Part shown: positions 31,832-36,842 of the stretch, piece by piece | How the letters are laid out: each line of letters opens with the position of its first letter | Numbering within the stretch: position 1 is the first letter of the stretch | Origin: Nitrospira sp. | Lineage (GTDB): Bacteria; Nitrospirota; Nitrospiria; Nitrospirales; Nitrospiraceae | Direction: 5' to 3' | DNA: 64,000 nucleotides | NCBI GenBank assembly: GCA_036984305.1 | Contig: BQWY01000001.1 | Span: 744,001 to 808,000 of the forward strand | Translations under genes and position numbers: made by a program | The notes under the pieces: model-generated | Told to the model about the DNA's origin: nothing | The model's database searches: none | Seen by the model: only the letters and a program-made list of their open reading frames with translations

Positions 31832-32383
31832 TCAAAACGGGCTGGCTTTGTCCTTGGCGGCGACGAGTTCCTGAAGATGCGCGAAGGCTTTCACGATGCG
31901 TTCGGCGCTGCTGGCGCCACGGAAGAAGATGGAATCGACCCTGACTTGTACGCGTCTCTGTGAGACGTCCCCCACACAGAACGTCAGCTTCTCGATGCAG
32001 GGCGTCTTCCCTCTACAGGTGACCCGCACGCTTTGATACGTCCTGGTTTGGTCGACCTGCTCCGCTCCGCCCTCCTCGATGCTGGCGATGTCGTGAAGAT
32101 CGAAAATCGTCCGACCGATGCGCGATAACCCCGTCCCATGGTTGAGCTCGACCAACCCGAGGTTGGTCCCGGTTGGGATCGCGGCATAGACCTCTGTCGT
32201 AAGGGTCAGGCGTTCGCCGTCTTCGGGGTGACAGCTCGGCGCGCGGACAATTCCCTGCTTGCCGATAAACTTCGTGAGGAAGGTGACGGTTTCGTCCAGG
32301 GACTGGCCGAAGCTCCACGATGGAGCCAGCCCGCCTAGGAGCAGCCCTCCGAGCACTACATTGATCAGTCGGATGTGCGACAT
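31832..32383 (-). CDS. Secreted protein of unknown function
   Basis: 183 aa with a clear signal peptide (LINVVLGGLLLGGLAPSWSFG, cleavage probably after SFG). The mature part has four cysteines (SCHPEDGER, TCRGKTPC, FCVGD), enough for two disulphides. DLHDIASIEEGG and the overall beta-rich pattern do not match a family I know. It is followed by nothing on the same strand and has its own promoter upstream. Confidence 0.7.
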   Translation of the reverse strand: MSHIRLINVVLGGLLLGGLAPSWSFGQSLDETVTFLTKFIGKQGIVRAPSCHPEDGERLTLTTEVYAAIPTGTNLGLVELNHGTGLSRIGRTIFDLHDIASIEEGGAEQVDQTRTYQSVRVTCRGKTPCIEKLTFCVGDVSQRRVQVRVDSIFFRGASSAERIVKAFAHLQELVAAKDKASPF

Positions 32384-32512: not shown

Positions 32513-35500
32513 TCATGCCTCGGCATACCAGGGGCCGGTTCCTTCGAAATTCGTGGCCTCGTGTTTGTCGGTGCTCTCCGGGGACAATAGGTAGAGCGTG
32601 GCGACCGTGAAGGTCGCGACGCCGAATTGTTCCTCCACTAAACCACGCAAGAGATACGCTCGGTCGGTGGCGAGCAGGTGACAAGAGCGCCGGTAGACGT
32701 CCGGAAAGAGCGTGGCGTCGTACAGCGCGGTCGTGTCTTCGAACGTAGCGAATTCCATCAGAAGCCCGTCTTTGGTTTCGACGGCTTTCTCCGTGACCAG
32801 CACGCCGACCATTGTGATGCGGCGGCCCACATAGGCCGGCATGGCCGAGGCGGGGACCCAGTCGATCCGACGGAGTTGAGGGTGGTACAGCTCCAGCGGA
32901 TGGCGGCTGAAAAGCAGCCCCAAGGTTTCCATCTCATGGGCTAGTTTGCGCCTCAGCGGATAGTCGTCGGGCACCGGCAGATTGACGGAGCCCGCGCGGG
33001 CGCCGGCATAGAGCCGCCAGAGCAGGGCGGGTCTGGTCAGCTCGCCGGCAATCGAATCGCAACAGCCCGATCGCACGAGCGAACGGGCGTGGCGGGTTTC
33101 CATTGGCACGCGTGCGAGGAGGTCCTGAAACGAGTGGTAGACACCGTTGGCCGTACGCTCCTCGACGATCTTTTTGCCCACGGTTTCCGGGAAGGATTTG
33201 ATCTGCATCAGTCCGATCCGGATCGTGCGGTCGCAGCCCGTGTAGGCCCATTCGCTGGCGTTCACGTCTGGCGGCGCGATGGTCAGGCCCATGCGCCGGG
33301 ATTCCGACATATACGCGTAGGCGGAATAATAGCCGCCCTGGTTGCTGATCACCGCGGCCATGAACTCCGCAGGGTAATGCGCGCGAAGATAGGCCGATTT
33401 GAACGAGACCTGCGCATAGCTCGCCGAATGCGGCTTGCAGAAGCTGTAGCCCGCGAAACTCAAGATCATCTGCCAGATCTGCACGATGGTGTCCGGGTCG
33501 GCGCCGTTCTTGGCCGCGCCTCGGCAAAATTGATCGCGATAATCCCGGAGCTGTTTTTCCTTGTGCTTCTTGCTCAGCACTTTTCTGAGTTGGTCCGCGT
33601 CTTCCACCGAAAAGTCCGCCAGCGCCATCGCCACCTTCGTGACGTCTTCCTGATAAACCATGATGCCGTGCGTCTCGTCGAGAATGGTGGCGAGCCGCGG
33701 GTGCCATGGACGATACGGGGCACCCTGCGCGCGGCGGACGAATTCGTCTACGAAACGGATGGCGGCCGGCCGGACCAACGACGAGACCATCACCAAATAT
33801 TCGAAGACGTCGAGTCGGGCCTTCCGATCGGGCGGCATGCCGCCCCAGAGTTTCCTCAAGAGCGAGCGCGTGGCCGGCGATTCAATGTAAAAACAACCCA
33901 TGGTATTCCCCTGCCGGATCAGCTCCTGCGTGGCCGAATCGGTCAGCGGATTCCAGGCGGCATACTCGATGGTGCGGCCGGTGTTGTCCGCCACGGCCCG
34001 GAGCGCGTCGCGAATGACGGCGAGCGAGCGGTTGCCGAGCAGATCGATCTTGACGAGGCCGGCCTCTTCGGTTTGCTCCTTTTCCCATTGAATGACCGGC
34101 ACGCCTTTCGCGGCGATTTCGACCGGCACGTAGCGGCGAATTTCGTCCGGCACGATGACGACTCCGCCGCAATGGAGCGACAGGTGCCGGAGCCGGCCTT
34201 CCACGCGTACGGCTGCACGCAGGATGTCCGGCCACGGCTCCCGCAGTGCGAGCGACCGGCTCACGCGCTGCGCCCAGACGTCGGCCGTCGGCGGTCGATC
34301 GAACGTCACGAAGTGCTGGCGCCGAAGAATCAATGACGATACCCGGCCGATTTCCGTCGCGGGGATGCCATAGACCTTGGCGACCTCCCGAATGGCCGCG
34401 CGGATGCCGAGCGTATTCTGGTTGGCGACCATGGCGGCTTGCGACGCGCCGTAGCGTGTGAAGACCCAATCGAGAATGTCGTCGCGTTCGTCCCAGGGAA
34501 AGTCGATGTCGATGTCGGGCGGGTCTTTCCGGCCAGGATTCAAGAACCGCTCGAAAAACAGATTGTGCCGAAGCGGATCGACGTGGGTGATCTCCAGGCA
34601 ATAGGACACGATGGAGGCGGCCACCGATCCACGACCGCAGGTCCGCGGCGCCTGGCGGACGATCTCCTGCACGACCAGAAAATAGTCCGCGAAGCGCTTG
34701 TCCTGGATGATCGCCAATTCGTGCTCGATGCGCGCGCGGATCGTCGGCGAGACCTCGCCGTAGCGCTTGGTGGCTCCGGCATAGGTGTGCTCGCGCAGCA
34801 ACGTGAAGGCCGCCTCGCTCGAGAGTTGGCGAAACGCGGGGAAAATCGTCTCGCCGAAGCGCCAATCGGTATGGCACGTCTCGGCGATATGCGAGGTGTG
34901 CTCGATCGCCTCCGGGCAATGCGGGAACTGCCGTGCCATCCGCTCGGGCGGCATCAGCCAGTGCGTCGGCCGGCAGCAGGCCGAGGCGGGGAGGCGCGAG
35001 AGCGTCGTGTTCAACGCGATCGCGCGCAGCAGGCGATGCACGGAGAACTCGTCCGGCCGCACGAAATGCACGCGATTGGTGGCGACCGGCGGCAGGTGTG
35101 CGCGACGGCTGAACAGGAGCGTCTGATGCATGGCCGGTCCCGGCGTCAACTCGACATAGAGATCTTCCCGTGAATCGTTCGCCCAGGCGGCCAGCGCCGG
35201 TTCGTCGTCGCTCAGCACGATCACGCCGTCGCGATGCCGGGCAACGGCATCGATAAACGAAAAGCCGGGATCGCTGTGACGCGCCGACAGCAGGCGACAG
35301 AGGTTGGCGTATCCTTCGGGGGTCTTGGCCAGCAAAACGGCTCGGTGCGACTCCGTGGTCAGCTCGGCGCCGAGGATCGGCCGAAGCCGCGCTTGTCGCG
35401 CGACCGTGAGAAAGCGCACGGCGGTATAGAAGCCGTTCGTATCCGTCAATGCAAGCGTCCGCGCGCCATGCGCACGCACCGCGTCGCACAGAGCCTGCAG

Positions 35501-35563
35501 CGGCGACACGCCCTGCATGGGCGAATACTCAGAGTGGACGTGCAGGTGGACGAAGGGCGGCAT
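32513..35563 (-). CDS. dnaE2: Error-prone DNA polymerase DnaE2 (ImuC)
   Basis: C-family polymerase alpha subunit of the mutasome used in SOS mutagenesis and lesion bypass. The 1016-aa protein begins with a PHP domain (VHLHVHSEYSPMQGVS). The palm domain carries the catalytic aspartates in PDIDIDF (about residue 350), and the FAGYSFCKPHSASYA stretch lies in the fingers region, followed by HhH and OB domains. It lacks the C-terminal extension of replicative DnaE. The start overlaps imuB by 35 nt, so the two are translationally linked. A replicative DnaE is excluded by context and length. Confidence 0.92.
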   Translation of the reverse strand: MPPFVHLHVHSEYSPMQGVSPLQALCDAVRAHGARTLALTDTNGFYTAVRFLTVARQARLRPILGAELTTESHRAVLLAKTPEGYANLCRLLSARHSDPGFSFIDAVARHRDGVIVLSDDEPALAAWANDSREDLYVELTPGPAMHQTLLFSRRAHLPPVATNRVHFVRPDEFSVHRLLRAIALNTTLSRLPASACCRPTHWLMPPERMARQFPHCPEAIEHTSHIAETCHTDWRFGETIFPAFRQLSSEAAFTLLREHTYAGATKRYGEVSPTIRARIEHELAIIQDKRFADYFLVVQEIVRQAPRTCGRGSVAASIVSYCLEITHVDPLRHNLFFERFLNPGRKDPPDIDIDFPWDERDDILDWVFTRYGASQAAMVANQNTLGIRAAIREVAKVYGIPATEIGRVSSLILRRQHFVTFDRPPTADVWAQRVSRSLALREPWPDILRAAVRVEGRLRHLSLHCGGVVIVPDEIRRYVPVEIAAKGVPVIQWEKEQTEEAGLVKIDLLGNRSLAVIRDALRAVADNTGRTIEYAAWNPLTDSATQELIRQGNTMGCFYIESPATRSLLRKLWGGMPPDRKARLDVFEYLVMVSSLVRPAAIRFVDEFVRRAQGAPYRPWHPRLATILDETHGIMVYQEDVTKVAMALADFSVEDADQLRKVLSKKHKEKQLRDYRDQFCRGAAKNGADPDTIVQIWQMILSFAGYSFCKPHSASYAQVSFKSAYLRAHYPAEFMAAVISNQGGYYSAYAYMSESRRMGLTIAPPDVNASEWAYTGCDRTIRIGLMQIKSFPETVGKKIVEERTANGVYHSFQDLLARVPMETRHARSLVRSGCCDSIAGELTRPALLWRLYAGARAGSVNLPVPDDYPLRRKLAHEMETLGLLFSRHPLELYHPQLRRIDWVPASAMPAYVGRRITMVGVLVTEKAVETKDGLLMEFATFEDTTALYDATLFPDVYRRSCHLLATDRAYLLRGLVEEQFGVATFTVATLYLLSPESTDKHEATNFEGTGPWYAEA

Positions 35564-36740
35564 AGCCCCACCTCACGACGCTGTCACCAAATCGTTCGCG
35601 CACGCGATCCAACGCGGCGGAAAGACGTTGCCGTCGCAAGCCGGCGGCCTGTTCGGGTGACGGCTCCGGAGCGAACAGCGGGAGTTGCTCCGACGGCGAG
35701 CCCAGTGCTTCCGCCCGGAGAACGAGCGTATGCAGGCGCACCCGACGTCGGAACGCGGTGAAGACCAGCGTGCTGATGGTGCCGGCCAAGTCGTGCTCCC
35801 AATACGTCGGAGCGGCCAACGTCCGGTGGGCGGAACGCTCGGTGTGATCGCTATGCCGAAGGGTCAGCACGAGACGGCGACAGACACGCTGTTGCTGGCG
35901 GAGGCGGCGGCAGAGTTCTTCGAGCAGTTCGGATGCGTGTCTCAGGACACTCTGGTCGTCGATCTCGTCGGGATCGAGCGAACGGGCGCATTCCATCGAC
36001 GGTTGTTCGATCGCCGGCTGGACCGGTGAGGGATCGATGCCGATCGACCATTCGTGCAACACCTTGGCCGCCGTCCCGAGCGCCAACTCGAGATGAACGA
36101 CGGACGTGCGGGCGATCGCGCCCAGCGTCGCAAGGTTCAGGTCTTCCAGCGTCGCGCGGATCTTCGAGCGATGGCCCGGACTCAGTCCCGGTAAGAGCGT
36201 GGTCGGAAGCGGCTCGAGAAACGTCGGTTCGGAGCCCGGCCAGATGCTCACCAACTGCGAGGGTTGGCCCAACGCCGTGGCAGCCAAATGCGAGACCAGC
36301 TTATTGCCGGCAATGCCGATGATGCCGGCTAAACTCTGGCGGGTATTGATCTCCCGCTCCAGTCTGGCAGCCGCATCGACCGTGCGGCCGTACAGTCTGT
36401 CGGTGCCGGTCAGGTCGAGATAGAAATAGCCGGGCAGGACCGGCTCCCACACCGGCGCAAAATGCGCGACAAGCCGTTGCAGGTCTTGGTGGGCGGTTCG
36501 TGTGCGCCGGGGATCGGGCGGGAGAATGCGCAGCGCGGGGCAGAGTCGTTGAGCCAGATCGACGGCCATCCCGGACACGACGCCGTCGGAGACGGCTTCC
36601 CGGGATGCCTCTATGAGCCGGGCGCGGCGCGTATGCGTCGAGGCGATTGCCACCGGCTTAGTGCGAATGGACGGATCGGCACGCCGCGCGATGGCGATTT
36701 CGAACGAAGGGATTTGGACGCACAAAATTCGGCGATCCAT
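35529..36740 (-). CDS. imuB: Mutasome Y-family polymerase-like protein ImuB
   Basis: 403 aa Y-family homologue that bridges DnaE2 to the sliding clamp. The N-terminal strand reads ILCVQIPSFEIA where active polymerases have a catalytic Asp, and the SIDEA-type motif is replaced by FYLDLTGTDRLYG, so it is presumably catalytically inactive, as known for ImuB. QLPLF near the C terminus is a good beta-clamp binding motif. ATG 36740 is preferred; GTG 36752 is possible. imuA, usually the first gene of this cassette, is not present beside it. Confidence 0.88.
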   Translation of the reverse strand: MDRRILCVQIPSFEIAIARRADPSIRTKPVAIASTHTRRARLIEASREAVSDGVVSGMAVDLAQRLCPALRILPPDPRRTRTAHQDLQRLVAHFAPVWEPVLPGYFYLDLTGTDRLYGRTVDAAARLEREINTRQSLAGIIGIAGNKLVSHLAATALGQPSQLVSIWPGSEPTFLEPLPTTLLPGLSPGHRSKIRATLEDLNLATLGAIARTSVVHLELALGTAAKVLHEWSIGIDPSPVQPAIEQPSMECARSLDPDEIDDQSVLRHASELLEELCRRLRQQQRVCRRLVLTLRHSDHTERSAHRTLAAPTYWEHDLAGTISTLVFTAFRRRVRLHTLVLRAEALGSPSEQLPLFAPEPSPEQAAGLRRQRLSAALDRVRERFGDSVVRWGYAALRPPARPL

Positions 36741-36805
36741 ACCACGCACCACACGGGAGACCGGGCGGAGAGCCCGATGTCATCAATTCGCAAACCGCCA
36801 TGAAG

Positions 36806-36822
36806 TGTAACCAATGGTTACA
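36806..36822. promoter_or_regulatory. Perfect palindromic operator candidate (LexA-type) before imuB-dnaE2
   Basis: TGTAACCAATGGTTACA: 8-bp perfect inverted arms about one central base, 66 nt upstream of imuB. It overlaps the -10 region of a minus-strand promoter with a consensus TTGACA. imuB-dnaE2 cassettes are LexA-controlled in studied bacteria, so an SOS box is the natural reading, but the LexA motif of this lineage is not known to me. Confidence 0.55.
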
Positions 36823-36842
36823 ATAAAAATATGCCCTGTCAA
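36815..36842 (-). promoter_or_regulatory. Putative imuB-dnaE2 promoter
   Basis: On the minus strand TTGACA (36842-36837), then 16 nt, then a weak TAACCA -10 (36820-36815) inside the palindrome. The consensus -35 with a -10 buried in an operator is what a tightly repressed gene would show. Confidence 0.45.

Follow-up and report, generated by a model that had tools for sequence, protein, structure and literature searches.

The closest described relatives of the system reported here are the non-canonical LexA repressors of Bacteroidetes. According to passages of PMC8565304, these proteins combine a peptidase S24 half with a phage-repressor-like helix-turn-helix (PF01381), and stand in for a missing canonical LexA. 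They control their own gene and error-prone polymerases, with a regulon that includes recA and with the motifs GGA-N5-TCC and CTAA-N5-TTAG. The same passages describe HdiR of Streptococcaceae, a LexA-like S24 repressor that clusters with phage repressors and has a minimal regulon of itself and a mutagenic polymerase. HdiR and UmuDAb are described there as minimal SOS regulators.

Error-prone polymerase cassettes that contain their own repressor gene are also known. Passages of PMC8072749 describe a Deinococcus lexA-imuY-imuB-C-dnaE2 cassette without imuA, as well as a lexA-imuA-imuB-dnaE2 cassette. Further background comes from excerpts of PMC3919608, on DnaE1 and DnaE2 in one Nitrospirae genome, and of PMC13148647, a 2026 report of a phage-type regulator in Francisella. 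The string “nitrospir” is absent from the text of PMC8565304, PMC12926913 and PMC3765255. The literature searched, judged by titles and the starts of abstracts, held no description of a DNA-damage regulon or chimeric repressor in Nitrospira, which are central nitrifiers.

The locus analysed here lies in a window of 64 kb (the whole stretch of DNA examined) from a Nitrospira genome. Two genes on the minus strand form a mutasome pair. The first, imuB (35529..36740), encodes a catalytically dead homologue of the Y-family polymerases, recognised by Pfam IMS and IMS_C. As expected of ImuB, it has other residues in place of each of the three catalytic carboxylates found in E. coli DinB. Its conserved start is the ATG at 36740; the GTG listed at 36752 lies upstream of this codon. 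The second gene, dnaE2 (32513..35563), encodes a C-family polymerase that passes the cut-off of TIGR00594 and scores 583 bits against the error-prone model NF004225, below the cut-off of 939. The end of imuB and the frame of dnaE2 overlap by 35 bases.

The initial annotation held that this pair lacks its usual first gene, imuA, and the profile searches bear this out. The NCBIfam ImuA model, NF033429, passes its cut-off in none of the 175 genomes of the family, and its sole weak match in the source genome is recA itself. Judged by this model, the imuA-less pair is family-wide and not local to the source genome. Compared with an imuA-imuB-dnaE2 mutasome, the dead Y-family active site is present and imuA is absent. 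The Deinococcus form is likewise imuA-less, and there too a repressor gene heads or controls an error-prone polymerase cassette. Unlike those cassettes, imuB and dnaE2 are adjacent here without a separate ImuB-C gene or an ImuA detected by NF033429, and the repressor is chimeric.

An open reading frame for 183 residues (31832-32383, minus strand) lies just 3' of dnaE2 on the same strand and has no Pfam or NCBIfam match. Two other frames of about 300 residues (SPLIRFGTSTWTYEGW..), similar to each other, are placed differently: one follows dnaE2 at L098:772-1719, and the other is near an operator-bearing small gene of another genome at L105:3330-4217.

Upstream of imuB lies a perfect 17-bp palindrome with 8-bp arms, TGTAACCAATGGTTACA, at 36806-36822; on the imuB strand it reads TGTAACCATTGGTTACA (36822-36806). 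Its perfection, and the fact that it differs from the SOS boxes of E. coli and Bacillus, had been recognised from the start. It is the only perfect odd palindrome with 8-base arms in the window. Base composition predicts 1.4 of these per window and 0.0008 per 103-bp region (36740-36842). With one seen against an expectation of 1.4 for the window, the palindrome alone is weak evidence. It is notable for its place and not for its existence, and the argument is carried by position and by the findings below.

The promoter proposed for imuB consisted of a consensus -35 with the palindrome across the -10. The first element is clear: on the minus strand, TTGACA occupies 36837..36842, separated by 14 bases from the palindrome (TTGAC 15 bases before it). 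The second is less so, as the putative -10 (TGTAACCAT) inside the palindrome matches TATAAT only weakly. The 17-bp operator thus overlaps the presumed -10.

Scanning the 4.35-Mb source genome at up to three mismatches gives three sites: the imuB site, one at C1:1590876 (one mismatch) and one at C1:51000 (three mismatches). The last lies inside an open reading frame that on visual inspection resembles a transporter gene, and was dismissed as a chance match. At up to two mismatches only two sites exist genome-wide, at imuB and at the sole S24-peptidase gene. This gene (G000:C1:1590892-1591434), 810 kb from the imuB palindrome, encodes a 180-residue protein, P0001; no further Peptidase_S24 protein turned up in the source genome. 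The site at C1:1590876 overlaps the ATG of the P0001 gene, whose promoter copies that of imuB, with TTGAC, 15 bases and then the operator.

P0001 consists of two parts. HTH_3 matches residues 6-44 (HTH_31 also matched) and Peptidase_S24 matches residues 60-173. A profile built from 23 relatives matches LexA structures over residues 54-178 (E 1e-31), and matches residues 4-45 of the 434 repressor at residues 4-45, so that the numbering is identical. Over its C-terminal half, P0001 shares 42% identity with E. coli LexA, 34% with UmuD and 23% with lambda CI. Ala66-Gly67, Ser100 and Lys137 align with E. coli LexA and are invariant in all 23 aligned sequences. In the predicted model (mean pLDDT 81) the N-terminal domain is built of four helices; the structures that match this model best are those of LexA, among them LexA bound to RecA filaments (8gms).

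By these comparisons, P0001 is a LexA-type repressor, predicted to be competent for self-cleavage, in which an XRE/434-repressor helix-turn-helix replaces the winged helix of LexA. The kind is already known, as non-canonical LexA. Like canonical LexA, it has the S24 Ala-Gly site, the Ser-Lys dyad and, by sequence, an operator at its own promoter; unlike it, the winged helix-turn-helix (PF01726) is missing and recA is outside the regulon (eight genomes). Because P0001 passes the generic lexA model TIGR00498 (115.4 against a cut-off of 110.95, over residues 48-178 only), automatic annotation may hide the change of domain in proteins of this type.

The chimera may have arisen by a domain swap inside LexA, or by capture of a phage-type repressor that had a LexA-like half. 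A tree of C-terminal halves unites the 23 chimeras at a support of 51; the support is 96 for the group that also includes a Paenibacillus phage repressor, which sits on a long branch, and the next deeper nodes have supports of 29 and 34. These values do not discriminate between swap and capture. Searching a phage collection with P0001 by tblastn gave 35 records, and those listed were 24-42% identical (LexA, UmuD and unannotated phage proteins), with no close relative.

The main reading, given a probability of roughly 90%, is that the palindrome is the operator of this chimeric LexA, whose gene lies elsewhere in the genome, and that the repressor keeps imuB-dnaE2 and its own gene off until DNA is damaged. 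We infer DNA binding, repression, RecA-triggered cleavage and induction by damage as follows. A repressor dimer would bind TGTAACC-N3-GGTTACA through its 434/lambda-type helix-turn-helix, with contacts from R28, residue 29 and R33 in helix 3 and from R39 in the loop that follows. The bound dimer would cover the -10 of the imuB-dnaE2 promoter and that of the repressor's own promoter, keeping both off. After DNA damage, RecA filaments would cause the LexA-type C-terminal half to cleave itself at Ala66-Gly67 by means of Ser100 and Lys137. Loss of the repressor would then allow the ImuB-DnaE2 mutasome and new repressor to be made. The recA gene itself would not be part of the circuit.

The operator is conserved well beyond the source genome. 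Thirty imuB loci were examined, of which 28 stand alone and two are headed by a repressor gene; every one has a single site with at most two mismatches, giving 30 sites in the 122 kb searched. TTGAC lies 15-16 bases 5' of the operator in 28 of these. For the repressor gene, 224 tblastn rows yielded 155 distinct loci after removal of 67 duplicates and two stretches with N. All eight core bases are present in 147 of them, seven of eight in 7 and none in 1. With L253, which the motif pattern missed, set aside, 154 loci remain, and TTGAC stands 15-17 bases from the operator in 153. No recognisable site was seen at L166 or, in the further set described below, at L300. The repressor ATG falls between one base inside the operator and two bases past it in 152 of the 154 loci; therefore, the repressor message should be nearly leaderless. 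Among the 183 repressor loci with enough downstream sequence (three more were too short), imuB lies directly downstream on the same strand, at 13-233 bp, in 56.

A scan of 20 genomes gave 35 sites, compared with five for a reversed control pattern. By manual count, 29 of the 35 are at repressor or imuB starts, three precede one small-protein family, two precede another and one is intragenic. In the source genome, apart from the P0001 and imuB sites and the intragenic C1:51000, there is no site with up to three mismatches before recA, uvrA or other genes. The recA loci of eight genomes have no site within four mismatches. Read from these sites, the regulon is small: the repressor itself, imuB-dnaE2 and two small-protein families, with recA and uvrA outside it. 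The exclusion of recA is unusual for an SOS repressor.

The first of the small-protein families has about 120 residues (..REE/ED..GVYLR..AVVHRVG..SGEW..), and the operator and start codon precede it at L102:3117-3514, L104:3253-3631 and L316:2726-3095. Pfam gave no match for L102 or L104, and PHROGs none for L104 or L316. Its members are candidate new damage-induced genes. The second family consists of two paralogues of about 100 residues (RPALGYxVILFARGSN..) in genome G116, at L105:2345-2660 and L106:2299-2617, which belong to no Pfam family.

This arrangement can be set beside the two described S24 systems. The Bacteroidetes type, compared here by description only, similarly has a CI-type helix-turn-helix with S24 and controls itself and error-prone polymerase genes; it differs from the Nitrospira type, which has the operator TGTAACC-N3-GGTTACA, a regulon without recA and a C-terminal half close to LexA. 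HdiR, also taken from its description, shares the minimal regulon of repressor and mutagenic polymerase. In contrast to HdiR, the partner is imuB-dnaE2 and not umuC. As to the phage-repressor (COG2932) type of C-terminal half, identity places P0001 nearer LexA than lambda CI (42% against 23%), but the tree joins the chimeras with one phage repressor on a long branch. Nitrospira offers one more lineage for the view that silencing error-prone polymerases is the core task for which S24 repressors are recruited.

Repressor and operator vary together. Residue 29 of the repressor corresponds to Gln29 of the 434 repressor, a DNA-contact residue. Leucine at this position accompanies AT/AT at operator positions 4-5 (11 of 11), arginine accompanies GA/GA (7 of 7) and glutamine AA/AA (8 of 8). 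Valine, methionine and isoleucine go with AA-like operators, a class loosely defined as neither AT/AT nor GA/GA. Likewise, residue 39, part of the loop that comes next after helix 3, varies with position 7: R39 is found with C in 143 of 143 loci, and all ten loci with other residues have G or A (histidine or leucine with G in seven; methionine, valine or serine with A in three). In a tree of the C-terminal half only (153 loci, L166 being left out), operator positions 4-5 change five times, four of them on a branch that also has a change of residue 29; residue 29 itself changes on six of 304 branches. The co-variation rests on about five operator changes, and the counts, taken from related and hence non-independent sequences, are inflated by kin genomes.

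The rules can also be used for prediction. A further set of 32 loci, three of them already seen, provided 29 new cases. For residue 29, all 20 predictions were right. The rule was silent for the other nine: five have T29 and four (L300-L303) were missed by the pattern, of which L301-L303 fit by eye and L300 has no site. For residue 39 and position 7, 23 of 26 predictions were right. The misses at L313 and L314 come from a search range too near the start codon, a consensus operator lying further upstream in each (whole bar the first base at L313, in part at L314); L300 is a real failure. The rule also held for a new combination, R29 with V39, whose loci carry TGTGACATTATGTCACA.

The readings that compete with a chimeric LexA differ in which protein binds and in what releases it. 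The initial annotation had suggested that the palindrome is the SOS box of this lineage, to be sought before lexA, recA and uvrA. The guess was right in kind, in that the site is likely the operator of a LexA-type S24 repressor, shared by its own gene and imuB-dnaE2, and a copy does precede the LexA-type gene; none precedes recA or uvrA within three mismatches, and the repressor is not canonical LexA. A normal winged-helix LexA that reads the palindrome and controls recA, uvrA and the rest could draw on the LexA-type C-terminal half of P0001 and its pass against TIGR00498. However, the source genome has no match to LexA_DNA_bind (PF01726). Together with the recA loci without a site, this refutes canonical LexA as owner of the site, and a conventional SOS response here is very improbable. 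Slightly less probable still is binding by another palindrome-reading regulator, of TetR, MerR or BirA type, with the site at the S24 gene a coincidence or cross-talk. The half-site TGTAACC may resemble those of other regulators, but the site is conserved at both genes across the family and co-varies with helix 3 and the following loop of the S24 protein.

Another possibility accepts the repressor and its operator, and replaces RecA by some other signal or a partner protease. Precedents exist in DdrO/IrrE (in passages of PMC8072749) and in IrvR of Streptococcus mutans, which departs from the RecA rule (PMC7101444), and recA itself lies outside the regulon. Yet all 23 aligned sequences retain the Ala-Gly site and the Ser-Lys pair, the C-terminal half comes closest to LexA, a structure of LexA on RecA filaments among the matches, and recA is present in the genome. 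Release without RecA is therefore considered unlikely, and RecA-triggered self-cleavage of the chimeric LexA is preferred. The shared operator, the linkage of the genes, the two-domain build, the catalytic residues and the co-variation are all read directly from the sequences.

Several repressors can share one cell. Among the 34 genomes examined that have two or three, the operator classes are all different in 33 (L300, without a site, was counted as its own class); the exception is G029. G106, G124 and G127 have three repressors each. Pseudomonas putida reportedly has two lexA regulons in one cell. Both cases involve co-resident paralogues with different motifs; Nitrospira differs in that one genome can have as many as three, and in that a residue-to-base code can be read from them.

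Taken more broadly, it is fairly probable that canonical LexA gave way in Nitrospirales to a LexA-type repressor whose DNA-binding half is that of a phage repressor. Its duplicates would have re-tuned residues 29 and 39 along with operator positions 4-5 and 7, giving up to three mutually insulated, damage-inducible, recA-free circuits per cell, mostly mutasome cassettes, and a natural, readable protein-DNA code. The co-variation amounts to a specific XRE-type helix code that can be put to the test, as well as a case of paralogue insulation in nature.

At E 1e-3, P0001-like matches occur in 147 of the 175 genomes of the family, though part of them cover only the S24 half of other proteins. In a sample of the phylum, 115 of 395 genomes match P0001 at E 1e-25; by manual count, 101 are in the family, 11 in the order and three beyond (E 1e-29 to 1e-35). 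The best 80 of 204 named relatives are Nitrospira or other Nitrospirota by title, bar one labelled Nitrosospira, and include Candidatus Nitrospira defluvii, which has a chimera gene at FP929003.1:3106037-3106564 and an imuB-linked paralogue at 2201939-2202475. Weak PF01726 matches occur in 21 of the 175 family genomes at E 1e-3, 15 of them over the cut-off. Six of these 15 are convincing by score (G164, G165, G169-G172); the other nine are weaker, including G131 with an internal stop. Only the genera g18 and g20 of the family have a convincing canonical LexA; there, P0001 matches are weak or absent, and an operator scan of one such genome, G169, gave no site. The chimera seems to have replaced the usual LexA in the nitrite-oxidising Nitrospira-type bacteria.

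Repressor and target do not always occur together, which counts against the main reading. G050 (99% complete) and G079 (99%, 380 contigs) have the operator at imuB, at L317:2809 and L058 respectively, and no repressor match. Conversely, in G006, G007, G091, G139, G147 and G157 the repressor is present, its own site is the only one with at most two mismatches, and ImuB matches are absent or at DinB-like scores. At L096:3390-4819, in G010, a repressor with a class-G operator is followed by an apparent dnaE2 remnant without imuB, which looks like a decayed cassette. Finally, in several genera (L087, L089, L091-L094) a stand-alone repressor gene adjoins what appear by eye to be modABC-like genes for a molybdate transporter.
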